In this document: positions 154 to 53,500 of the stretch, piece after piece
How the letters are laid out: each line of letters starts with the position of its first letter
Position numbering within the stretch: the first letter of the stretch is position 1
Translations under genes and position numbers: made by a program
Source of the DNA: Tubiluchus corallicola
Taxonomy: Eukaryota; Priapulida; Priapulimorpha; Priapulimorphida; Tubiluchidae
NCBI GenBank assembly: GCA_030141605.1
Contig: JAQGDQ010000012.1
Span: 824,359 to 888,358, forward strand
Length of the DNA stretch: 64,000 nt
Direction: 5' to 3'
The notes under the pieces: generated by a model
Database searches by the model: none
What the model saw: the letters and a program-made list of their open reading frames with translations, nothing else
Told to the model about the DNA's origin: nothing

Positions 154-12027
<11,874 letters not shown>

Positions 12028-21700: not shown

Positions 21701-23182
21701 TTCGCCCATAATAAGAGATCCATCAAATCGCTGAGATCCCATTCTGTGAGCCAAAAGATCCTGCAGCATTGCATATTTGGTTCGCTGTTCCTCCTGAAAC
21801 TTGAAATCTGGTCCAAAAATGTCCTGTATTTTCGTATTGAAGTCTAAGTCGCTAAATGAAATAGTCAATTTATAGAATTCGGTTGGTACAAACGTGAAAC
21901 TAATATTAGAAAAGATGACTCCACTTTTAAATTTATATGTTTAACACCACAAAATCTCACTTGACAAGCAGCTGTAACATATCTGACTCAAACATTAGGA
22001 TCTGAATATTCGTGCAAAAACATTTAAGTAGCAAGTGGGAAAAATAAAAAACGAACAATTAATATTAACGTGAAAAACATTGAATATCCTAGCTTGTAAT
22101 CTAAAAATAATTATTTTTATTTACCATTAATAATTATTAATTCATTAAGTATGTAAAAGTAGTAATACTTCATTAATACTTATTTATATTTGTTTTTAAA
22201 TATTTTGAGACTACAAGGGACTTCAATATTTGTTTTATGTTAAAATGACAAGTCTCAGACAAGCATATTTTAATTAACATTAATTTTTGGAACTTTAGAC
22301 GGTAACTTGGATTAGAGTTAGTAATTAAGAAATACGTTCGTGATAAATGTGTAATAATATCAATGAATCCAAAATTTGGTCAAGTGATATACAAGCAAAG
22401 TTGTAAATGCATAACAAATAAACAGGTAGCACCAGAAAAAAATTGTAATTTAAGAAATATCGGATGTGTTGAACTTGCGTTTTTCCAGTCATCACATTAG
22501 CTAGTAGTGTGGCTGTGAAGGATTTTGTCACAGATCCAATGCAGAATCGGTGATCTTGAGTTGCATTTTCTCCAGTCTCTACATCTGCCAAACCAAATGC
22601 CTTGCTGTAAACTATTTCATCGTCTCGCACCATGACAATGCTTATCCCTGGTCCAAAATGTCGACAGTTCATCAGCTGAAGTCAAACATTTCGAACGCAT
22701 TACACAAAAGTAGCGTTGACGTGGTTCGAATTTCCTAGAATTTTAGCGCCTTTGCCCTTGGTTGGTAAAAATAACAAAATAATAAACGTACAATGTAATT
22801 AACAATGGTTACTGCACCCCAGCGGGTATATTTTTGAAGTACCGGCAGAACAACCACGACCGACAGTCGACTTGGTTGTAACGGAGTTTGGCTGTTCTGT
22901 GGAAGTAAACTCAAGACTGTTCAGCGCACAATGGCGTCATTAATATTGCAAAGTGTCACAAAGTGAAAAATCACCTTGCAATAAAGTGAACATTTCAATC
23001 ATGCTTGTTAGGTATTAATTGTCCTATAAAAAAGAGAAACCCACACAGTGACTTACAGATTCTACAAAGCTATCCATTGATTCCTCCTGCGATTGAGAAA
23101 GCTTCCTCCCGGAGCTATGTGCAAAGAGCAAAACAAATACACTTATAAAGTTTATTATTTTGCCTACCCTAGCGTCTGACAT
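18781..23182 (-). CDS. Secreted serine beta-lactamase-like hydrolase
   Basis: Exons in coding order: 23057-23182, 22479-22675, 21669-21851, 20842-21111, 19816-20075, 18781-19544; they join in phase to 599 residues. Residues 1-25 form a signal peptide (hydrophobic core IINFISVFVLLFA). The beta-lactamase/penicillin-binding fold follows with all three signature motifs: S90-V-T-K93 (SxxK nucleophile), Y186-N-N188 (YxN) and H352-S-G354 (in place of KTG). A C-terminal accessory region (about 400-560) contains LEDYVGHYRHYFGGV. A Pro/Thr-rich stalk and a final hydrophobic segment ending at the last residue suggest a GPI signal or tail anchor. Metazoan members of this class C-like family are mostly of unknown substrate. 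Two junctions need care: the intron after exon 2 has a GC donor (GCAAGT), the only join found that keeps frame; the exon 5 donor could also be slightly downstream. The introns argue against bacterial contamination. Confidence 0.85.
22478..22478 (-). other. GC-AG intron donor (intron 2 of the beta-lactamase-like gene)
   Basis: The coding strand reads GGAAAAAC|GCAAGT and joins to TTTAG|CGACTTAG at 21851, giving GKT-DLDFNTKIQD in frame. The nearby GT (GTTCAA) would leave the wrong phase for this acceptor. GCAAGT is the usual context of GC donors. Confidence 0.7.
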
Positions 23183-30900: not shown

Positions 30901-33436
30901 AGAAACGTCTGATTTAAATATCGGGGCTGAGTAGCTAACAAGAATCATTTATATTTTATATTGTGGGAAAAAATTTACGTTCCAAAAAAGTAGTGTGAAT
31001 TTAACCGTTATCACAGATGCAGTTGAGACTGGTTCAGCGATTAAAAGTCCTGCCTAAGGAAATGTATCAACAAAAAAGTTTGTACCTGTATATATAGTGT
31101 AGTTTTTTTGACAAAAACTACTCAATATAGAGTTACAAACTTGAATTAACATTAAATCTCGGGACTAGCTTCGAGCCATAAACGTGTTTGTTATTTTCTT
31201 ATAAAAAGTAGTACAACCTGCATATGAGTAGCCTATTTTGCTCTCTGTCTCCAAAATAATTAAACATCTGTCTGGCTCTCTCTGTCTGTCTGGCTCATCT
31301 GTCTGTCTGGCTCTCTCTGTCTGGCTACACATATACAGGTTCTACTGCCATTTACAAGCTCTGTGTAATTTATTTTGCGCAAGCACACGAACACAAACAG
31401 CCGGTTTGCAAAACAAGTGGAGTGTTGTGCCATGAATGGCGTCGTCTATAGAGCTTTTTTAGAAACAACGTTATGTTAACAATCGCGTTACGTTTAGCAA
31501 CTGAAATAATTACGCGAGCAGCAAAGGTGAATTCAATGTTTTCCTCAACAAGTAAAATTCTACATTTTACAGTCAGACCGCTGTGGAGGAAACCCAGATT
31601 TTATGGTTCACAGAAAGACTAACACCAATGTGTAATTTTTTACAACTGTCAAAAATCGTTCCTATGTTTTTGTGACATTTTTTGGCGTGACTGCAAACGG
31701 ATATTAGTCGTGCTAAGAAAACTGTTTTTTGGCGAGACTAGTTGTTATTACGGTATTCACCTCACATATCATCTCTTCATTATTATTCTGCTCGGTACTA
31801 CCTAGTACATTCACCTAAAGCTATGACCCATATGTGACCAGCATTTTATTTGCGTGACAGATTTCTAATAAGCATAATATGTCACACATTTTTCAGTCTG
31901 CGTACTAGATTCTTTATGGCTAGTTCATTAAATTATCCGAATTGAAATGCCTGTTATCTTACATGTACAAGTGCTTGAGTGTTGCTGAAAATCGTAGATT
32001 GACTGAAAATTCGTACAATTTTCCGTTTTATTTTTAAAACAAAAATTCGCAGCTTTGATAATAAATCTTTCCGCATAGCCTGCACGCAATATTTAAATAA
32101 ATAAATGAAATTTTGTAACTAGCCTCATCAACATTAATATAGCGAGAATATTCTCTGATTTTTAATGTAAACATATCCGCTTGACTTCGTCTACAAACAG
32201 TGAAATTTTTAAATTTACAGTGATTATTACAATTGATATCGCATATCTTTGCTGCTTGCGTAATTAAAGCGCGACTTCGATAGGTCTTACGTTTTCAGAA
32301 TAAAAACGACCAAACGCAACAAACTGGTCTGGTCCATTCTTCATACGTTAGTTAAATTTCCCATTCATTAGTTGAAGTATCTCTTAAACATCTTAAATGT
32401 ACATAGTTGCTGCCGCAACCCGAGAATTCGCTGTTCTCTCCGTTTTCTCTCTTCGCATATTGTAACAGGAATTACTATTATTTATTTTAGAAATAAAATC
32501 AAAGACAAAAAATACAAAAAAAATTAAAATTTGTGTTCTGTTTGACCTGTATTCCGGTCTGGTATCTTTTTTCATAGTAAAAGTCGCATTTGTTAAATGC
32601 TTCAGAGCTCTACCGCCCAAACGTTCTCGCTCTAATAATTATTTAATTTCCAGGCTGAAGCAGAAGCATCAACAATAAAAGAAGAGGTGCTCTCAAAACT
32701 CATTTCTTGTGAGAAGAGCAAGTTCTACATCCCACGACCCGACCTTCTTTCCGCTTCAAGAGCGATCATCCAGAATCTGAACTGTACAAGATACCAGCAA
32801 ACGTGGCGGTGTATACAAGATTCGCTCAAACATAAACCGCGTTTACTGGAAGAGCTGTGTTCAAAACACAACACGATTGTGATTAAAACAATCAGAACTA
32901 AGCTGCGCGATGTCATCACCTTGATCAAAAACTCAAGCAGTCACGTTAAGCTGACAATATTGCACGTTGTTCGAGATCCCAGAGGCATGATGAATTCTTG
33001 GATGAGGTCAAGGTCAAAGATAGATACAGTCAAGTTCAAAACCGCCCAGGAATCCAGTGATCTGTGCACATCCCTTTACGAAGACATGCTTGAGGCGGAA
33101 GAATTTGTCTCACTCGGGAACTACTTTTTGTTGCGCTATGAGGACCTGGCTGCCACACCAGAAGCTGTAGCAGACAAAATATATAGGCTTTTGAACATTC
33201 CTTTGCACGAGAATGTTCACAGGTGGATACGCCAAAATACGAATGCATCGCTAGCAGTGGGCGGTGAGGTGGGCGAGGAGAGAAGAATGGGACAGTACAG
33301 GCGAAATTCAAAAGCTACCTCTTTGGCGTGGAGAAGCATTTTAGACGCTGACGATGTTAGCATTATTGAGGAAAACTGTAAAAAGTTTATGGAGAAGGCT
33401 GGATACGCAGTAGAGAATAAGACAAAAGCACATTAA
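27966..33436 (+). CDS. Carbohydrate sulfotransferase, type II Golgi membrane protein (CHST-like)
   Basis: These enzymes transfer sulfate from PAPS to sugar hydroxyls of glycans in the Golgi. Exons: 27966-28185, 28372-28512, 30633-30742, 32654-33436, in phase, 417 residues. Residues about 48-70 form one hydrophobic helix ([19 protein letters not shown]), the type II signal anchor. The 5'-phosphosulfate-binding loop is [11 protein letters not shown] (R119 to about 127), split by a phase-1 intron exactly at Gly121. It is followed by [12 protein letters not shown], as in the CHST1/3/7 (Gal/GalNAc/GlcNAc-6-O) group. The 3'-phosphate-binding motif is [14 protein letters not shown] (R264-D-P-R-G268). 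A frame open upstream to the ATG at 27858 would add 36 residues. I prefer 27966 because it has A at -3, while 27858 has a weak context and overlaps a short upstream frame starting at 27854. Which sugar is sulfated cannot be told. Candidate poly(A) signals AATAAA lie at 33863 and 33884. Confidence 0.88.
29165..29276. repeat. Small inverted-repeat element in CHST-like intron 2
   Basis: GTTTCAGGTTTAAAA (29165-29179) is perfectly inverted as TTTTAAACCTGAAAC (29262-29276), with 82 bp between. It may be a tiny foldback element or a hairpin-forming site. Confidence 0.6.
31258..31328. repeat. TCTG/GGCT-rich microsatellite
   Basis: Interrupted TCTG repeats with interspersed GGCTCTC in intron 3 of the CHST-like gene. 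Confidence 0.8.
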
Positions 33437-37187: not shown

Positions 37188-38541
37188 TCACCTCTTTTTG
37201 CTTCTAGATTTTCTTCGCTGCTTACTCCTTGGCTTCCCATAAGTAAAGGTAATGCATTGTTCATCCAAAAAATCAAGCAAGTAATGCTTGGAGCATTTTA
37301 TACCAGCTTCCCTTAGTTGCTCATAAATATCACTGATCAGAATTGGCTGGAAAAGAAATAAGTTAAATAAATTGTTTATACACAATTAACACTAACCTTA
37401 GTTTACTTATAACCACATTTAAATGCCATTGAATTGCAGGCCAAAAACTAACACCCAGTGGTAGGCCCTACTTGTAAAGGAGACTGGACTGAGCGCATTA
37501 TCAAAGATACGATGAACTAGCAGAGCAATATTAGCAAAAAACAATTTGTGTGTACAATGTGTTATGAGTATTACCAAGATAAATAGCCAGAAATACAGCA
37601 GATGAAGCCACCTAGAATCGGGTTTTACAATATCCATCCAATTACTAACCAAGCCCAGCCCTACTTTGTAACCAAGAATGTAATCATTCCAAATACATTT
37701 AACAGACATTCGTTTTTCATTAAGCAAATTTATAAAATTGCTACTCAAAATATTATGTATTAATTAGAAACTGCAATTAATGACATGTTATTCCTTTGTC
37801 AAATGAAAGGCTGACCCACAACATTTTTGACGGACTGTATTCTGATAGCTTCATACGTCCTTTAATGGCTCCTAGGATTTTTAATCGGTTTTTGCAGATT
37901 TTTTCGATAACCAGATTTGTCGTCAGAATGGTCCCCAGATCTTCAAAGTATTTCAACATTTCAGTTATTTTTCCACGGCTTCAAACATTTTTTGAATACA
38001 ACAGCAAAAGCTGTGCATCCTCTCGCTTCAATCGATACTAAGAGTAAGTTCTTATTTCCCACCCGCCTTCTTCCACTTAATGTGGTAAATGCGTGAAATT
38101 AACCCACAGTACAAAAACTTTTATATATTGAGTGCCTGACCGTGTTACATTACGCGTACCTGAAAAAAGAAGTCTACACATACTGCGCACATTTAGGTTG
38201 AAGTGTTCTAAAACATATTGCTATCAGAATATTGGGTTTCATCATAAAACAGGCAAAAAATGATTTTAATATTTTACTAGTGCTTAGACAAGTTTCACGT
38301 TACAGTTTTTATATGAAGGGGGCTTACATACAGATGCATAGCAGTGTATGTGTATTCTAATTGTGTTTTGCACTTACACTTGAAAGACAGACGTAATGTG
38401 CGTTACGAAGATCGATTCGTGATGAGAATACAAAATATATGTTGCTGAGTGACGTACCTCAAACTGCAATATTTGATTATATAAGCTGGTGTTTTGTCTA
38501 ATGAAGTCCATGATCAAGCATCGTGTATCGACTTGCGACGT
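37188..38541 (-). other. SLX4: SLX4 terminal exons: SLX1-binding C-terminal domain
   Basis: Exon 14 (38458-38541) encodes [18 protein letters not shown] and exon 15 (37188-37346) continues [18 protein letters not shown], then [15 protein letters not shown] and a basic tail ending SRSKKR. This is the conserved C-terminal helix-turn-helix domain that binds SLX1. Both introns on either side are phase 0, matching exon 13 at 53190-53250. These exons lie 14.6 kb from the rest of the gene, so an automatic annotation could easily split them off as a separate short gene. Confidence 0.9.
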
Positions 38542-41500
38542 CTGAAAGGTAAGATTAGCAGAGAAAACATTATAACTTACTCTTTTGTATAGTCAGTGGG
38601 CAGTTTTAGAAACGCCTAGTTACGCAGTGTTTTTCCAATTCAAAGTCAGAATATTTAACTTCTTTATTTATTTCTTTATTTTACGCATTAGAAAACATTT
38701 ATACAGGATGAACTCATTGAGCTACTTTACAGTGAGTTACCTTACAACGAGTTACTTTCCTATGAGAAGAAATTTAAAGTTTGTTTGCAATTACAAAATA
38801 CAGTAAATGATAAAATCGAAAACACATAAAAATATAAATCTAGTAACAACGCAAATTTTAATCACGTGTTCAAATCAGCCAAAATAATACTGCGAAATTT
38901 TTTTTTGGTATTTTGTTGAACTAATTTATAGTTTTTTGTCCACGAAGATCTATGGGACACAGGCGTACGAGCCGATTTTTCCAGCGGGTAGGCTGAGCCA
39001 ATTTTGTCCAAAAAATATAGCGCCAACCGAAAAAAGTACTGGCAAAACTTGACCAGATAATGCGTTATAAATTCGCTAAGAGACTAAAATGTACAAAGAC
39101 GGGTATAAAACAGTGTATTGTTCACCATCATCGCCGCACATATTCATCATCATCATTCCATTGTGTATAATCCAACTTATGTTTATAACGTATTTGACGT
39201 ATTTGAATGAAAAATCTCGAGAAAAGACAATATTCACAGAACAGAAAGGCATCACCATGATCACAGAAATAAATGTGCCAAACATCTGCAAACATGGAAT
39301 TCCCACCGCCAGTACAGAGTACAGTGAGTGGTAGACAATGTTCGATTCCCTATTTTCACTATAGAATCACGAAGCTTGCAGGATAGGCACCTAATACAGG
39401 TAGCCACAAAACGGTATAGAAATGATGACCTCCGAATCAATGGTTAGTGCAGCAGGACACAAAATGTGAAAATTGGGCGAATAACTTTGTCACTCAACTC
39501 CACTTACATCATTGGACTGGTTTTTGAGCGTATGCATAGGCTAGTAAGGGTAGATGTGCACCAGGTATGTTTCAAAAAGTGGGCGTGGCAACGTCACGTG
39601 TCATATGCAAAAGTTTTAAAAGAAAATGGATGTCCTAGGTAATCATGCATGGAGAATTCAGCAATAGCAAAATTAGGATCTTGAGACAAAGATCAAATCA
39701 GCAAAGATTTTTCACGTCTTGGTCATAATGCAGAATCTTACGTTTATGACTGGGTCATAAACAGCAGTCAAGTTATCATTATACATAATAGTTATTACAC
39801 ATAGCTATATAGGTTTGCGCATGTGAATTTAGCTTTAACGTTTCGTGGTTTGCATAAAAGTTCAAAACACTAACAATGTAGTGTCACAACCATGGTCGCA
39901 TGGATGATACACAAAAATTAAGAGATGAAAGAGATTGTTACAACTAATAATGTAATAAACGCCTGATATTGTAATATTAAAAAATGAACGCATAATGTGA
40001 TAACAAAAATTCTAAAGATAATATAATAATATAAAGCCATAACTAGCTGAATTAATGTTACTTGGTACAAGTGGTGTACTGCTGCTGGAATACGTGGGAG
40101 TAGTGCGTTTCCTTACTCTATTTGGAAGGGGGAGGTGTTCACACCACATACCTAGTGCTCATGCAGCAGCGGTTGGTGCTGACTTGGGACTATAGGCAGC
40201 TGCTTATATTATTCCTTAAAAAATATACAATTTTATAAAAGCAATAAGCCATCAGGCTTAAAGTACTTATGCTGGCCCTTTAGACATATTATTAAAGCAC
40301 TTATGTGGTCTTTTAGTTACACTGTTAAACCACTTATGCTATAATATATGGACAGCACTGCTAGACCGGAATGGTTGTGAATTTAACTGTAATCACAGTT
40401 TTTTATACTTTGCAACGATGCTATGATATCGCCGAATTCTCACCCGCAAATTCGCAGCAGCCAGTGCAGCGAGGAGACCTAAGTTACATCACAGTTATAA
40501 TTGCATTTAAAAATGAAGCCTAGTGAGTGAAAACCCTCCCTCCACTTAATTAGCAGTTACATTAATTCTTGTCTGCATATAAACTATTTATAAAGTCTGT
40601 TTATAAATTCTAGCTTATCACAGTTTAATATCTAAAAATCTAATATTGTCAGATAGATGTATCAAATGAAGTGTTTTATATCTAAAAATTTTACTATCCA
40701 ATTAAACGTAGTTAATAAACCAAAAAATTCTGTTGATGCAACGAGAAAAGCACCTCCAATCTAGCTTTGCATTGGGTTAACAATAACTTTGCAAAACGCG
40801 CTGAATCTTGTTATGCAAATATTTGCAATATACCGAAATTTGTTGAGGCCGCTTAAGAAACACTATATATAGGCGAGAAATTTTGTACTGGTGCAATCTT
40901 GTTTTGCAAATATTTGCAATATACCAAAATTTGCTGAGGTTGCTTAAGAAACACTATATATAAGCGAGTAAAGGTGCCAATCTACAAAGCATACAGTGCA
41001 GTATGAAGTTGCATGAATGGCATACACAACTGCAATGTTATCTGCAATTTTTAATTTTCGAGCGTAATTTTCTTCTCAATCTAACATTAATGCTGTAAAC
41101 AGTCATTACATTTTTCTTGCAGAATAATATACGGCATGTACTTTGGTTTTGGCCATTGCATAAAATTTTCAGAGAAATTTGTAATTGCATATAAGTTATT
41201 AGCTGGAAGATTTTAAGTTTTTTTTCAGAAAATAGTAACTGAAATACAACCTTTCAGCCTTCGGGTTTTCAACCTTTTGTGTTATACATGTACCAAATAA
41301 TTTCTTTAGGAAACCTTTGAATAAAAACAAAGGGATGTTTTGTCTTTCTGAAAGGCATTTGAATTGTTTATGAAAAATTGTCTTTTATGTATAAGCTTTG
41401 CTTGTGGTTATTGTAGCTAAAATTAAAAATTTGCTAATACTATAAACACGCTACACATACGACAGTTTTTTATGAGTGTTTATTCCAAACTTTGCTTTTC

Positions 41501-44500
41501 CATGCGTTATTACTAGAAAATAGGTTTATTTTAATTTAGGTCATTTTTTGTGTAATTTTGTATGTAATGAATAGTAAGCTATCGGTGCCAATTTAAATTT
41601 GACATAAAGGCTGTAAAGTGTAGATTGAAGAAAATTTATTTATTTGAGCATTAATAACTTGCTTAATGAAAGTCTATTGCGAAATTATGTAAATATTGTG
41701 CAGGTACTATTAGACAATAGCATGATTGTTGCTTAATGGCATGTAGAGGTGGTCTGTGAAATAGGTACATCGAAATACGTATACCAAAAGTTCTGTGCAG
41801 AAATACAGATTACAAGCAATTTCAATGCTAACCATGGATATCAACAACACAGACAACTCAGCAATAACAAATACGACAATGATGAAGCCAACAGCAATAG
41901 CAAAGACAACAGTAAGAACAATAAAAACAATTACGACAGCAGCAACAGCAACGACGACAAAGACAACGATAACAATGACAGTAATGACAATGACAGCGAC
42001 TATGATATGAAAACACATTGACAACGAGTGATGGCAACAACAATAACATTTATCACAGTAACAGGTGGATGGAGTACCGGTATGATTTCGTTTTATAAAG
42101 CATTTAGGCACAATTCAGTTTTGTAAATCTGCTTTTAATATGTGTTATAGTTTCAGTCACTAAACGTATCTCCATTTTATTAAATTTTGTTATTAGTTTT
42201 ATTTTATTTTCAAACATTATCCCTCCTGCTAGCTTTTTTATATGATGCACTCAGAATATATTACCTACTACCTACTACAAGAACTTCATTCTGCTTAGTA
42301 CAAATGTTTAAAATATCGTAAATTGTATCGTAAAGTACTAGTATTACAATTATAATTACCCGAGAAAATAATTCTTACCGTTTTTTTATTTTGAAATTAA
42401 AATACAAATGTATAATGATAACAGCACACAGGCTTCAAGTATTGATAAAACTGGAAAAGAAACAATTAGACATGGCATTTCTTTCTAAATACATTAATAA
42501 TTAATCAACGCACTGCAAAAGTAACACAGCTTACTTGACTAGTCGCTTGATAATAATATCATTATTGTTAATATATAATTTCTCTTTTTTAATAACTAAA
42601 GACAAAAGTAAAACAACTACTGTCAGTCTGCCACTGCTTTGAATTCGCTGTAGGTGCGTAAATCGTATTTCATAAGCATTTATTTCGCTACGGAAGGCGG
42701 CACAGTGCCGCCGAAGCTCAACGCTAAGCGCAGTCACTCAGGTCTCTTTATTTCGCTGCTACGGCCCTGCAAAAACATTGTAGAAACGTTTAGCAGCCGT
42801 GGGACTGGGGTTGCTGAGCAACAAGTAAGCGCAAACCTGCCAATCAGCTCAGCGTCTGAAGCCAGGTGAATTGCACAGTTATATTACTATATGTGCGTTC
42901 TCACGCAAAACCACTTGTTGCTGGTGAAACGTTTATTTAGTCGATTGTCTTGTATTTCTTATAAAATGGCAGTCAAACTGTTTGTTAACCAAGTCCTAGA
43001 TGAGCCAAATAATGATGGTAAAAGTGATTCCGCAAGTGATTCTAGTGACTATTCTGAAAGTGAAACTGAAAGTTTAGCAAGTGATGGGGTTCATGCAAGT
43101 TTTTGTGAAGAAAAATTACAATATGTAACTTTTGTGATAGATATGTAAACCATTATCAATATAGGTGGGTTTGCACACCAACTGAAATGAATTATTATTT
43201 TAATTATGTCACTTGGGCTTATGTCATAACTATAATCATGATCATGATATCTGAAAAAACTTTAAAGTGGTGATAATGGTGACGATGGTGGTGGGTGATG
43301 CTAATGCTGCTGCTGATGATAATGACGACGACAACGACGACGACAGTGACGATGATTGACAATGATGATAAAATGTACATAACAGTAATGAATAATTATT
43401 GTTATTATTACTTTTCTTAATAATCGTAAACCAAAATACCAATATGATCGAACTTCATGATGACACATCACTTGAGATTATCACAAAATTCTTAAAAAGG
43501 CATAACAATGATTTCAAGGTCTACTTAAAAAGTCATGACGACAGGGACACGACAAAAAGGAGTGCTTCGTGGAAGTCTCGGAAGGAATTTTATAGGTCAT
43601 TGGAAACAGGATGAGCTTTGCCGGGGGTCTACTGCCAACTGAGTGCATTTCAGTTTTATATATGCCATTTTTCCTACGTTTCCTTCTATTCCCTTATTTC
43701 CTGAGCAATTTTTACCTGTGCCATTTTTTCCGGTGCCATTTTTACCTATGACATTTTTACTTACATTCTTCATTGACACATTGGGCAAATTGTAATGCAT
43801 TGAAGAGGGTTGTAATGCCAGTGAGTCACGGGGTTAATGCAACACCTTCACATTCCAAAAAATGAAGTTATATTACTATATACATGTATAAAATAAAATT
43901 GTACTAAGTAGCATTAATTCTACTAGTTATTACATTATCAGTTAGAATTTTCGCTATTACGTCGTGCGTTAAGTTTTTGTTATATTACCAGTTAATTTTA
44001 TTACAATGTTAGTTTTTTCGTATTACAATATCAGGCGTTTATACATTATCAGATGTAACAGGTGTCATCAACGAGTAATGTCTACTCCCCCTTCTGGTCG
44101 GAAAATGCTTAAGGAAGAACTAACCCTCGAACAACATTTAATGCATTTTAATGTGCAATTAAAAATATAGAAATCACAATACAATATATGCACGTAGAAT
44201 GCTTTGCTTAAAAACGTAAACGAAATTTAATTATTTCTTATCTCCCGCCAAACGAACGTTGATGCCGGCATATTTCAAAAAAAATGAGCGTGAATACCGT
44301 GACAGCAAGCTGTGTGAAGGTACGCGTTGCAAAATTTCTACAGTTTGCTTAGAAGTTCCGTTATTCTAACGCTGTGTTTAACTAGAAATTAGTCATTCGA
44401 TCAATTACGATCAAAGTTAAAGTGGTTACATTGATTTAATCTGTAGGATTATACCTTAAAATATGTAAGTAATTAACATTAATTGTGTAAATAATTAATT

Positions 44501-47500
44501 TACAGATTTTTGTTGACTTTTAGATAAGCTTGTAAACTTGCCAGCATGTAGTAGGTGCCGAGCTGGTTACTTAGTTTGTAGTTTCGCTCTATAAGTTAAA
44601 AAAAGATTCTGCAGCACTTGGCGCGGGATAAGTGTTTATATTGCACGGAAACCAGATGACGTCATTTTTCGTCTAAAATGAGCGCGCGCAAGCGTAAAGT
44701 AATCACGACTTTAAATTGATTTTAGTAATTACACGAGATGCTTATCACAATTTTATTACTGAAACTTTCTAACAGTTTATTCAAATACAGCTAAAATAAG
44801 CTCAACTTCCCGAGAGACTTAGCTTTTGCTTTAATACTAGGCGTTAAAAACATAACTTTGGAAATTTATTGAAAGTCTGAACACGGTGAACAACTTGGTG
44901 GGTAAATTCAACTTAATGAACATACGAAAACAATCGGTAGTTTACGTACAGAGTAATAAGTGTCAACGACCAGTTGTCACCTGCACGGCACAGAAAATTT
45001 ATTGAAAGTCTGAACACGGTGAACAACTTGGTGAGTAAATTCAATTTAATGAACATAACGAAAACCATCGGTAAGTTTACGTAGAGTAATAAGTGTCAAC
45101 GACCAGTTGTCAGCTGCAGGGCACAGGGCAGTAATTTTTACGCATCGTGTAATACAATACTGGTTTTACAAGTAACTGCGAACATTCAATATAAGACTTT
45201 ATAGTACCAAAAACGTAGCAATTCTGCCTCATTGTGTTACAGGCTTGACATTCGCCAGAAGTTTACGGGAAGGCACCTATGTTTAGAATCCGAAGCATCA
45301 AGAGAAAAATAATCTGGCTTATCCTTGTGATAGTGTTTGTGCATACAGTATGGAACTTAGCAGCAGTAAATACAAATACAGGATCGTCCAACAATAAGGA
45401 AACATTTATTAGTGAACCACGTGTTGTAGCACAGAAAGGAAAAGATGGAGAAGTGGGCGCGAAATTGGAGAAATCAAGAATACCAGAAAATTATGTAAAA
45501 TTAAAAGCACAAAAACTGAAAGCCCGTGAAAAGAGCGCAGAATCAAATGTAGAAAAGTCGAAAGTGGAAGAAGAGAGTGTACACTCATTTCTGGACAAGC
45601 CAAATCTTGAAAGAAAATCAAATAAAGAAAAACCAAAACTCTTTGGAAACGTAGTAGAGCTGAAAAAATCGAAATTACCAAACAGATCAAATAACTTTGC
45701 AAAGAATACAAACTACGTACAACTACAGGGTAAGTAAACTTGTCATTCACGTCTGGCATATTTACGAACAACTGTGGTTCCTTAATATAAATATAATAAG
45801 AATAAAATTAATAATTAGCCATCCTGCTTTTACCCATTACAATTATTACTAAATCAATGTGCTAACGATAGAATACGCACGCAAATTATTAAATATTTCA
45901 ATAATTGACGAAAGAAATGTGAATAGTTTACTACTAATAAATAAGCAATTATGCGGCTTAATATTTATTGCTGGTTAACATATTATGGCTACATTATATG
46001 CTTATTGCAATGTATAGAGAGCAGTAGTATTCAAACTACATGTATTTTATATATCGAAACCCGCCAATTAAAGCAGGTGGAAATCAGCATAACCCAGGAA
46101 CTAACACATTTTCTGCAATTTTCTTTAGTCAATTTTAAGTCATAAAAATTTAAAAAAACCTTAAAACAAAATTCTGGATTAAAAAGTGGCTAGAACTGTG
46201 TTTTGAAATGCATTTATTTGTTTTATTTACGTTTGCTATTTGCAGCTTGGATTTAGATAAAAAATGATTGTGATGTAGCGTTGTTGTAACTTTAGAAATA
46301 AAGATGATTTTAGCAAGGACGGTTTTCACTCCATTAAAAATATAATACCCAGTTTATTGTCTGGTTTATAATTTCTTCTGCACACGTAATTCATGGAACG
46401 AGTTGAGTGCAGTTGTGGCTTGGACAACAGAAACTCACTCCACATTTACAAAGAACGCGGCAAAGAGAACACCCTAGCAGCAAATTAGGTTTGCAATTAA
46501 CTTTCGCTATTAACCTTTTAATTATTTAAATAATGGCATGCAACAAACACGTCAATTTCGTCATACACGCCACATCACACTGACAGAAACAAATCAATAA
46601 AAAATGCATGTATATTAAAATAATGTTCCACAGGTGCATACATTTATGATGTAAATTGCTCAGCTCTGTATTTAAACATTATTTTAGCATAAACTATCAG
46701 TTACATTTAATTATTGAAAACATATGTGCAGTTTTGCAACATATCAATGAATATTGGCTTATCGTGAATAAAATAAAGAGCTTGTTGTAATTATTTTTGA
46801 CATTTTAATTTATTTTAAGTACAACTGCTACACAACTCTTTTTCTTTTCATTATTTACAGCATGGCTTTTAAGCTGTGTCGAACCAGATCAAGTTTTCCC
46901 AGACGACCCAGAAATCCACATAACAGATTTTACCAGTGATTGCATACAGCAGTGCGAGGACAAGATTTTGCGGATACCTCGGTACCATTAAACTAATATC
47001 ATATAAAATGCCCAATAACTGGTAATGTTGAAAAATTAATTGTCCAGTGCAACGCTTATTGTGTTGTTTGTCCTATAGTCATGAGAATGGCAACTAAGCC
47101 ATAGAACTTGTATAGTGAAAAACACAAGTACACTGTAAAAAGTCGACGACCTGAGGTATTTGCAATGTAGCAAAAAACTTGATTTGAAATGCAGGTGGCA
47201 TTTCTCCAAGGTTTTTGGTAAATACATTGTAGTATCCATATAACATATGCCCATTGCCCATTGCTGCTCTCACGAGCAAGTTTTGTTAATGGGGGGGGGG
47301 GCGGAGGGAATATGTGACTATGTGTCTTGTCTGCTTGCTGGCTGCAGTTTCCATTTCAATGATTGTGTTTCACGATGATGGTTAACTTAACTTTAGCCTA
47401 ATCTCCACGTTACCTAGTTTGCCAATTCAAAACACTTGCTCAACTATCTATACAACGTAAAAATCCACAATAAACCGAAGAACGAACACAAACATTGCTC

Positions 47501-50500
47501 TCCAGAACACATGTAGTGTTATATCATTTAGCTACAAGTTCAAAGCGAAAAGTAGTAGAAATATTACCACAAATATCACACAATGGTTGCAGCCAAATGA
47601 CTGTATACAAAAAACGATCAAAGGATTGAAAATAACCCTGTAAAGGTTTTTACAATAAGGTTAGTCTGCATCTAGAAGGGCAGATAATTGTTGCAAACTA
47701 TTCACATATTGAACAAAGTGAAGTGATATTTGCTTTGGGTCATATTTCAGGTACAATGTACTAAAGAAAAGGTACAAGCAAAACGAGAAACTCGCAGTAA
47801 TCAACCAAAAAGAGGCAATGTGTTACTGTCTACTACAAAAACAAGCGTCAGCAGCAATAAAAAATTTGCAAGCTTTGCTCAGGAGACTCAAACGTCGCCC
47901 TGCAGGTTCATGTGAATATATAATTGCATATAAAGAAGGTAAGAGCATAAACTGTTGGGCTACTAAGACTTACTCATTAATAATCATCCTGCTGAAACGT
48001 CGTTTGCAAAATGAAGAACGAGTTTCTTCACCCGAACTAGCTGGTAAAGAAACGCAGATAAAGAAATTACAACACTGCAAGACAAATATGGTTTGACATG
48101 CATTTGAAATTCTGTTATGTAGAATTAGAGGCCAACTAAACAGCTGCAAAGGGTTTCACTAAATATTTGTCTGACAAAAACTCGGTGGTGTTAATGGAGT
48201 TATCTTCGATTACTGATAACTGAAATATCAATAATTGTAGTTGGACAATTTTGTAAGGGCCAGAAATATTTCTCAGCACCCGTTATGATGAAAAGCTAGT
48301 GATCAGCACGTTTCTATGTGAAGCTCACAGTATTCAACACACAATTCCGTGTTATGTTCAGCTATTGAGTTCGATGAAGGTTTCAGTCCAATGTGTTGCT
48401 AACCACGCATAAAAGATGCTGGCGGCAAAGTGAAGTCACCTATTGTCTGATACTGAACTGATCTTTAATAGTGTCATTTACTGTAGTTAGTTCATACTAA
48501 GTTTAAAAAATTGTGTTGAATCGTATTCAGCCTCTAATTTAGGACGAAAAAATAAAATTTCCAAATATGTTACTGCAGTTGTAATCGTGCTTAGCTAGTT
48601 TAAACATATTTTTATTGAATAAGAAATATTGCAATAGGGCTTGAACAGACAGTTTTTAACAACTGATAAATGTTCTCATCAATGAAACGTGGCACTTAGT
48701 AGAGTGCAGACAATAAACAAACAGTAGAAGCATTACGGTATGACTACTAGCAGTATAGACACATACGTAGCATAACGTTGAGAAACACATTAATATTACT
48801 ATGTAATCAATATAAACTAAAACAAAAAGATTAGAAGCGCTTAGTTAGCAATATAAATTTATGTACAAGCTTAAATACTTGAATATTAACAGTTATATTT
48901 AAGTGTTGGTTACCACGAAGAAGCAGATAAACGAGTTCATTTGTTGACATAATATAAATTCTAATATTAATCGAGCCAGGTGATATAACGGGCAGCTAAT
49001 TAGAAAATGTACTTACCATAGTTGATTGCCTTTATGTACCTGTTGACCAAATTATCCTTGCATTAACAGATGATGACTATGATGATTATGACTACGAAAG
49101 AGATGCACGAAGTGATGGAGAAAGTGGAATAGAAAAGCTAGTGTTACCTAAAGCTGCTCTCCTAACAGAAAGAAAACAGAACCTCAATGTACACCGAAAA
49201 GGATTTGCCACTATGATAAAAAATAGGACAACAAGAAAACAGAACCTCGATGTACGACGAAAAGGATCTGCCACCATCATAAAAAATAGGAAAACGATTA
49301 AGCAGACCCGAGACAAAAATTTGAAATATAAACTGCTGAAAGGAGGTTAGTAGTTTACGGTCGTTGCCCATAAAGTGATAATTATAAGTCGTTCAATCTA
49401 TATTACAGGAATTAGTTGTACAGAATCTATTGGCAACTAAAATTTTTTTCCATTAAGACCTTCTGCAAAATTAGGCATCACAAACAACCATCACTTGATG
49501 ACACTTCAGCATAACAATAAATTTACAGAATTTAACCTGTGAATATTTTGATAGGCAGACGTGCCAGTGTATACATATTTTTTTTAATACATGCAGTTGT
49601 GATATTAAAATATACTATTTAAAATATATTTCTCATAAATACCAGTTTCACACCAAACTAAGACCATATAATATAGTGATTTTATATTTTTAAAGCTCAG
49701 TTTTTAACTTGTGCAAAAAATGGACAAGTTCAACACTTCCAAAAGATCTCTGTGACAAATGTCACGGGTGATTATGTCAAAGACTGCCTGCAAAGATGCC
49801 AGCTCACTACCATCAACATTTCACGTTCAGAGAAGTACGACTGATATTATTTTCAAGATGTTTGTTCTTTGACATAATTTTAAACTGTCTTCCATATAGT
49901 AATCATTGCAATGTGTGTAAAATTTTTACATGTCACCTTACAATAGTACTTTACTCTATTTTGCCTTCATGTTATATGAATGAATTAGTAATATATGTTT
50001 TTAATAACAATTTAGAGACAAACTGCCAAAGAACATCTATAGAAAGTTCGACAAGTTTGTGGCTATCGATCGAAATAGAAAACTCTGTTTCTGCGATAAT
50101 ATCAAAACTGTTGCAAAATCCATACAAAATGTAAGGACTCTGTACAAAAGACCAGCAACAATAACAGTACCATGTGAGCTAGATGTCTACGCATTGGAGG
50201 CACACCTTCAAAGAGTCAATGGTTTGTGTCATAGATGTGCAAAATGATTCTAATACAGTTTATTCGAGAAGCACTCTTAACACTTATGGTATCAATATGT
50301 TCCCAAATTAGCTGGCAACTAACGATATCATTAATTGATTATGACTGTGATTGTGTGATCAACAGTCATATTAGTTAATGATTTTTAAGACTTTTTCATT
50401 GAGTTTATGATCACATTGCTGATCCAGTTTATATTTATTTAGTTTGGAAATGCTGGAAATGTTTTTACTTTGGAAAAGCTTCTAGTATTACCTTGCAAAA

Positions 50501-53500
50501 ATGTTATTTTATAAAAATACAAGCAATTTTTATCTAAGCAAGTTGAGCTGTTGTATGCAGTGATAATCTATATACAATTTTTTATATGAAGCATTCTACG
50601 CCAGAATAAGTACATATATGTAAATCTTGGTTGTAAACAGTTGTAAATCTTACACATGCGCAATAGTAAATGTTACAAGTTCCATTCTTGTTGTGCCAAC
50701 CATGTACCTGTAGTCTTTTTTACTACAGACACTCGATGTGGTTTAATCTGTATGGCTGCCAAATCCACATACAAACGAAGAGCTTTAGCTAGTCTACCAG
50801 GGTCTGGTAATACATGGATGAGAAACATTATCGAACTGATGACTGGAGCATTTACAGGATCTGGATACAATGATGAAACATTATACAATTCAGGTATGTG
50901 GATTCATGAGGGTCCAGATGTTATACGGAATTATTACATAGTTGGTCGATAGGTTTCAAAAATATCTATGTCAAAAGTTTCACAGACTATTAATGATAGA
51001 GAAACTATGTTTGCAGAATTGATTTTTTCTGGTTTAGTTAAATGGTTTAAGTAGAAAATTTCATTAGCAGTAGGTAAACATTACTAACTAAACAAATGGA
51101 TAAAGTATACTTTTCAATTGTTAAACCGTACTGGACTGTTGTTGTGCTGTACATTATAGGAAGTGAATTACAAGTGTTACCAATTATATATATATATATA
51201 TATTTCAAAATTTTTGTTTTAATCTAGTCATAAGTGTTCAGTCAATACGCAGAAGACAACAACATAAGCAGTTAACAAATGAATAAAGTACACTTTTTTA
51301 ATTGTTAAACTGCACTGGACTGTTGTGCTGTACAATATTGGAAGTGAATTACAAGTGTTACCAATTATATATATATATATATATATATAAGTATCATTTG
51401 CAATAGAACTGAAATGCTGACTGTTCAAAAGTTTTGTTTTAATCTAGTCACAAGTGTTCAGTCAATACGCAGAAGCCCATAAATAGCTCAAATACTTCGA
51501 GCATTTCACACAATTTCGCAAATTTTGTGAACAGTCTTCAACTTTTTCTTTGTCACAGGTTTTTTGGGTGAACGAGAAAATCCAACTGGAACTACGATCA
51601 TTGTCAAGACACATATGGTCAAATACGCAATTCAACTGTACAACAAGAATGGTGCTATACTACTGATACGCAATCCTTACCATGCAACAATGTCTGACTA
51701 TAAACGACGTTATTCTGAAGATGGCAATTTGAAAAGCAACGATCACATGGCAGAGTGGTCTGAAGAAATTTTTTTGACTGAAGGTGCAGAAATCTCATTA
51801 TATGAAATTTAGTATTTCATAACAATTATCTTACTTACAATAAGTATACAGTCAAAAATTCTTTATTAAGTAATTACATTGTATGGTAATTAATAATTAA
51901 ACTAATTTATTGCAAGAAAATTCTTGCTCTGAGTTTTAAAAATGCATAACTGAATAACACGAAAAAGATTAAGTCAAGCTTTAGAACATAGTAGTTGTCA
52001 TTGTACAATGACGACTTCTTGAACATTAATTCCAAAATTTTGCTCTTTGCAGCATTTCAGGAATATGCTGAAAATCATGCAGAATGGTGGCACACCATCA
52101 ATTCCCTGTTTCTCCAGAAAATCAAACCACTTTTGGTTGTTCACTATGAGCACCTGCAGATGGACTTAACAGGTGAGGTGACTAGGATTGCAAATTTCTT
52201 TGGAGAAAATGTTGCAGCTGAGCAAATCAAGTGTGCAATAGAACACAACCGGGGACAATTCAAGAGGAGTGGCGTAAAGCAAAACAAAATCGATCCTTTC
52301 ACAGATGAGCAAAAAAACACAACTAATTACTATATCAGCGAAATCTCGAAAATGTTGACTGAAGAGGGACATCCTGATATACCAAAAGACTACTGGTTAT
52401 ATAATGATTCAAAATTGAACATCCGTTTAATGAATGAAACCAAAGATATATAGTGTTCAATGTTTGTGATTTGCTCCTCTCAACGATGTTACTTAAAGAC
52501 TATCATACAAATACAATTACTTGTACTTTGGTGTTACCAAGTTTTTTAGTGCTTATTAGAACCACTAGAGCTGAAGCTAGGTCAACTGTAAAGTACAGAT
52601 CATTCTAAACTGCTTTTGTACTTGTATTTCTAAGTAAATCTCCATAAAAAGTTGGTATATTATTATTTATAAAGTTAATTTCATCTTGGCATAATCATGA
52701 TTGAAAATATAGAATTTGTTTATGTATTTTTCTCTACTATTGCTTTACAATTTATATGCTAGTAAGCTAGTATAAGGTATTAAGATCAGTAACTACTGTA
52801 AAAGAACAGTTTATTAGTCAAATTTGACAGACTTTATATACCACTAAAATAATCGAGTGTCATTTTTCATAAACCACCAATACCATTCTTTTCTTCCCAT
52901 TACATAATATAAAAAAAGAAGAGCAGCACTCGACACACGTAATTTTATGGTTAGTCACTTGACAACTTTAGCAATGGCACAACATGACATTTTGATGATC
53001 TTGCTTTCAACTTTTATAGTTCCACTGTCACAGCTTAATTTATTTATTAAGATTGTTTGTGAGAATAGCATGTTTGCCATTTCCTCCTTGTGTTTTGTGA
53101 TCTATTTATACATTTTACTGTTACAGAGAATTGGGCATCTATTTGCACCAATGTCGAACTTTTTATTATGAATAAAAACCAATAAATACCTGTTGGGAGA
53201 GATGGTCAAAACTGTTCAGCATACTTTCTTCTGGCATATCTTCTGTATCACTACAAAACATTAGGTTTTTACTTGCAAAATAAGATACAGAGATAAAGGT
53301 AAAACAGAAACAGTTGGTAGCTTTGTACAGTATTGTTGCCTTACACTTTATTCAAAAATTATCACAATTTAAGCCACTATATGACTGCTAGATAATACAA
53401 TAACACATTTCGTTTTATTACTAGCTTAGAGATGATTCAGACTGTGGAAGCTTGATTCCAGGCACAACTATTTCATAAACTTGCACGCAAAAAACACCCT

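Follow-up and report, generated by a model that had tools for sequence, protein, structure and literature searches.

A probable WSCD sulfotransferase gene on the opposite strand of a 14.6-kb SLX4 intron in Tubiluchus corallicola

Opposite-strand nesting, with one gene lying in an intron of the other, is a common and described arrangement in animals (PMC8467205; PMC3192792). Nested genes amount to 4.3-8.7% of the protein-coding genes in seven vertebrates, and about three quarters of the simple nested pairs lie on opposite strands (220 of 296 in human and 193 of 248 in mouse); the internal genes often arise via duplication and are typically short and intronless (PMC8467205). The first-pass annotation of the locus described here, in which a sulfotransferase gene is placed antisense inside SLX4, therefore overstated how surprising such an arrangement is. 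Of the two partners, SLX4 has a conserved C-terminal domain, through binding of which SLX1 is activated (PMC8287910). The closest described counterparts of the other partner are Wscd1 (572 residues) and Wscd2 (571 residues) of the mouse, two sialate O-sulfotransferases with one membrane span, and Wscd orthologues have been reported from echinoderms to vertebrates (PMC9304399). No published description of a nested pair of SLX4 and a sulfotransferase gene was found in our literature search.

The window (the whole stretch of 64,000 nt that was analyzed) contains SLX4 as 15 modelled minus-strand exons, running from 63884 to 37188, which join into one uninterrupted frame (1,322 residues) whose only stop is at the end. 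Because the first modelled exon begins within the coding region, the 5′ end of the gene and further exons must lie outside the window; exon numbers, "exon 13" included, are counted from the window edge. The features relevant here are the following:

53190-53250, minus strand: SLX4 exon 13, the last exon before the long intron (open frame, GT-AG borders)
38542-53189, minus strand: SLX4 intron 13, 14,648 nt long, containing the nested gene (rebuilt exon model)
38458-38541, minus strand: SLX4 exon 14, which opens the SLX1-binding C-terminal domain (phase 0 junctions; Pfam Slx4)
37188-37346, minus strand: SLX4 exon 15, the remainder of the C-terminal domain and the stop codon (frame, junctions, Pfam)

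Both the 13/14 and the 14/15 junctions are in phase 0 with GT-AG borders, and exons 13-15 share one frame down to the stop, which bears out the claim of the first-pass annotation that exon 13 joins exons 14-15 in phase 0. Intron 13 measures 14,648 nt, versus 200-1,186 nt for the other 13 introns modelled within the window (864 nt for the one between exons 12 and 13), as expected from the earlier statement that all of these are shorter than about 2 kb. Elsewhere in the window, also on the minus strand, there are an exon of a beta-lactamase-like serine hydrolase (22328-22681; PF00144, E 1.4e-14) and three with a match to HSP70 (1268-10743; best E 1.1e-18).

When the joined 100-residue C-terminus was compared with Pfam, it matched Slx4 (E 1.2e-16; 60.8 bits, cut-off 24.8; residues 30-84), which confirmed its previous assignment as the SLX1-binding domain of SLX4. 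As exon 13 ends at approximately residue 20 of the joined 100, this match stems wholly from exons 14-15. Together with a BTB domain in the upstream part (Pfam, E 7.3e-14), it indicates that the two halves make one SLX4. UBZ-like and SAP-like regions are typical of SLX4, and the corresponding regions of the present model are presumably akin to them; the N-terminal region gave one zinc-finger match below the Pfam cut-off (E 0.0085), and the SAP-like peptide gave none in Pfam. NCBIfam left the SLX4 end unmatched, and no solved structure matched it at E up to 1. Searching the whole genome with the same 100 residues returned the three window exons and one match at chance level (E 0.97, two stops), that is, no second copy of the C-terminal end.

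An alternative is that SLX4, at least as a common form, ends in the intron right after exon 13, in which case exons 14-15 would be a remnant or belong to a different transcript. If reading continues past exon 13, the frame stops after seven residues, with a minus-strand AATAAA at 53167, which allows a candidate short form of SLX4 ending just after this exon. The exon-14 acceptor ranks only 100th among the 676 AG sites of the intron and lowest among the 22 acceptors scored, by a small splice matrix built from 21 other introns of both genes, the other 21 acceptors thus being scored in-sample; by the same matrix, the exon-13 donor ranks 7th among the 922 minus-strand GT sites in the intron. On the minus strand, neither AATAAA nor ATTAAA was found from the SLX4 stop down to 36700. 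What makes an early end improbable, despite these points, is that exons 14-15 keep an intact conserved domain, that they fit exon 13 in phase, that no in-frame ATG lies ahead of the domain as far back as the closest preceding stop, and that the genome search revealed no second copy of this SLX4 end.

Inside the intron, on the plus strand, lies a gene whose parts are:

45279-52453, plus strand: nested sulfotransferase gene from ATG to stop, nine coding exons, 723 residues (joined frame, GT-AG borders)
45279-45729, plus strand: exon 1, encoding a short N-terminal tail, a hydrophobic stretch from residue 11 and a charged stem
46861-46981, plus strand: exon 2
47751-47938, plus strand: exon 3
49070-49345, plus strand: exon 4
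49696-49834, plus strand: exon 5
50016-50221, plus strand: exon 6
50729-50893, plus strand: exon 7
51559-51783, plus strand: exon 8
52053-52453, plus strand: exon 9
46861-47938, plus strand: first cysteine-rich WSC-like module, exons 2-3 (phases, cysteine spacing)
49696-50221, plus strand: second cysteine-rich WSC-like module, exons 5-6 (phases, cysteine spacing)
50729-52453, plus strand: sulfotransferase domain, exons 7-9 (Pfam, solved structures)

Its coding region (45279-52453) is wholly contained in the intron (38542-53189), and the exon coordinates thus agree with the antisense nesting that had been proposed. That the gene is a complete sulfotransferase gene of nine exons and 723 residues was likewise upheld, by its intact frame, its GT-AG borders and its domain: Sulfotransfer_1 of Pfam covers residues 481-671 (E 1.1e-10; 41.7 bits, cut-off 22), and 31 chains of solved structures match this part at E up to 0.1, the top one being a sulfotransferase (2.9e-6). 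In NCBIfam, the sulfotransferase part was unmatched. The most hydrophobic 19 residues of the protein begin at residue 11 (mean 2.28, hydropathy only) and resemble a type II membrane anchor, from which we infer that the enzyme could be held in a membrane by its N-terminus. In exon 4, between both WSC-like modules, 63 nt (21 residues; 49165-49290) are duplicated in tandem and in frame. Directly ahead of the ATG, two 133-nt tandem copies with 93% matches (44862-45126) may mark the site of an untranslated first exon or the promoter.

The two cysteine-rich modules have their intron phases in common, carry the same cysteines at the same spacing, and are 31% identical (alignment of five modules). Pfam WSC matched neither of them; among the modules of three relatives, it gave one match below the cut-off (E 0.029), and a profile comparison against ten of this genome's own WSC domains yielded 1% probability (E 0.053). 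Of the label "WSCD-like", the sulfotransferase part and the N-terminal hydrophobic stretch therefore stand, while the WSC modules lack a Pfam match. The predicted architecture of the gene resembles that of a WSCD sulfotransferase, and it probably belongs to this group.

The sulfotransferase part had 40 matches in the genome at E 0.001 or better, three of which are its own exons, and they are spread over the contig of the window and 15 others; some may represent duplicated haplotypes. Given the matches on 15 other contigs, placement of a duplicated copy in the intron is plausible. Among the matches listed, the top-scoring one apart from the gene itself is 48% identical, and outside the window identity reaches at most 61%, across one exon, so that no recent copy is in sight. 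In the four family loci that were compared, breaks in the matches fall close to the borders of exons 7, 8 and 9 (locus L012 overruns by ∼15 residues). The N-terminal ∼450 residues, before exon 7, had no convincing match in these four relatives; exons 1-6 thus rest on frame, borders and pattern. Past the SLX4 end, and sharing the strand of the nested gene, there is an exon of another sulfotransferase (32639-33436; Sulfotransfer_1, E 7.2e-14), for which the genome yielded 52 further matches. A common origin of the two was considered, since both have relatives on contigs C1594 and C2064, and was set aside, the neighbor's relatives there being only 26-30% identical to it.

One might also suspect an assembly error by which either SLX4 exons 14-15 or the nested gene had been wrongly joined here. 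The assembly is at contig level (2,344 contigs), and WSC domains, of which this genome has many (129 matches at E up to 1), occur with identical scores on different contigs, for example, C354 and C2254, which hints at uncollapsed haplotypes. A search of the genome for the COX1 family was negative, as was one for a family intended to mark tunicates; the latter was equally absent from all 14 control genomes and is therefore uninformative. The window, on the other hand, contains 0 N, and the single SLX4 end is found on the present contig in correct order, strand and phase, which renders a misassembly most improbable.

The part of the intron ahead of the nested gene is rich in interspersed sequence:

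38958-40533, no strand assigned: interspersed repeat stretches (about 38958-39158, 39362-39790 and 39930-40533), with matches elsewhere in the genome
42683-42969, no strand assigned: high-copy interspersed repeat, in at least 39 other places (the best 40 of 1,116 first-look candidates were scored)

Since several of these segments recur at many sites in the genome, repeats have probably contributed to the length of the intron. Within this repeat-rich part, an inverted repeat of 35 nt (39955-39989 and 44008-44042; 89% complementary, 4,018 nt between the arms) perhaps represents the ends of a DNA transposon. That such an element carried the nested gene was discarded because the inverted repeat lies wholly ahead of the gene and does not bracket it.

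At the other end of the intron lie AATAAA motifs of both strands:

53162-53186, both strands: opposed AATAAA motifs next to the donor of exon 13 (53171 and 53181 on the plus strand, 53167 on the minus strand), near chance density

Cleavage takes place some 10-30 nt past a poly(A) signal. Between the stop of the nested gene and 53400, the plus-strand motifs at 53171 and 53181 are the only AATAAA/ATTAAA, and cleavage directed by them would fall at about exon 13. The 3′ untranslated end of the sulfotransferase transcript could hence extend into this exon, and the genes would not be strictly nested, a refinement that is compatible with the main reading; as variant signals are found closer to the stop (e.g., at 52633, 52643 and 52668), we regard such an overlap as possible, albeit rather unlikely. 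With 114 and 111 AATAAA on the two strands of the whole window, one or two per 800 bases is near chance. Transcriptional interference between SLX4 and the nested gene is possible on the basis of the layout. A more specific proposal builds on the opposed motifs, which lie no more than about 30 bases from the donor of exon 13: the form of SLX4 that is made might depend on whether the sulfotransferase gene is transcribed, antisense transcription favoring a stop after exon 13 and, with it, a product devoid of the SLX1-binding end. We consider this very unlikely; if true, it would tie the expression of a glycan enzyme to a repair nuclease.

Taken together, the locus is very probably an ordinary nested pair, in which a leftward SLX4 is spliced across the 14.6-kb intron and a rightward sulfotransferase gene of the WSCD kind resides inside. 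The SLX4 pre-mRNA would be spliced over the whole intron to reach the two exons encoding the SLX1-binding end, and a separate, membrane-anchored enzyme, one of the family present in this genome, would be transcribed rightwards from within. The nested copy may have arrived by gene duplication, and repeats may have added length to the intron; the enzyme would be expected to act in the Golgi and to transfer sulfate to a glycan, which may be sialic acid. A gene finder operating with a short intron limit could lose the SLX1-binding end, and SLX4 would then seem truncated. The arrangement is real but ordinary, and of a kind already known; it is another clear instance of nesting on opposite strands, in which the internal gene has several exons and the C-terminal end of the host was found once in the genome.

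Compared with animal SLX4, the present gene likewise has a BTB domain followed by the Slx4 C-terminal domain, and an N-terminal region that may be zinc-finger-like, but it differs in the one very long intron ahead of its last two exons. With WSCD1 and WSCD2 (PMC9304399), the nested protein shares the N-terminal hydrophobic stretch and the C-terminal sulfotransferase domain, with two cysteine-rich, putatively WSC-like modules in between; it is longer, however (723 versus 571-572 residues in mouse), its modules are so divergent that Pfam WSC does not recognize them, and the present genome contains several relatives. Like the animal nested genes described in PMC8467205 and PMC3192792, it is a complete gene in one intron, on the opposite strand, and belongs to a duplicated family. 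Those internal genes are typically short and intronless, whereas the present one has nine coding exons, which makes it one of the less frequent forms of a common arrangement.
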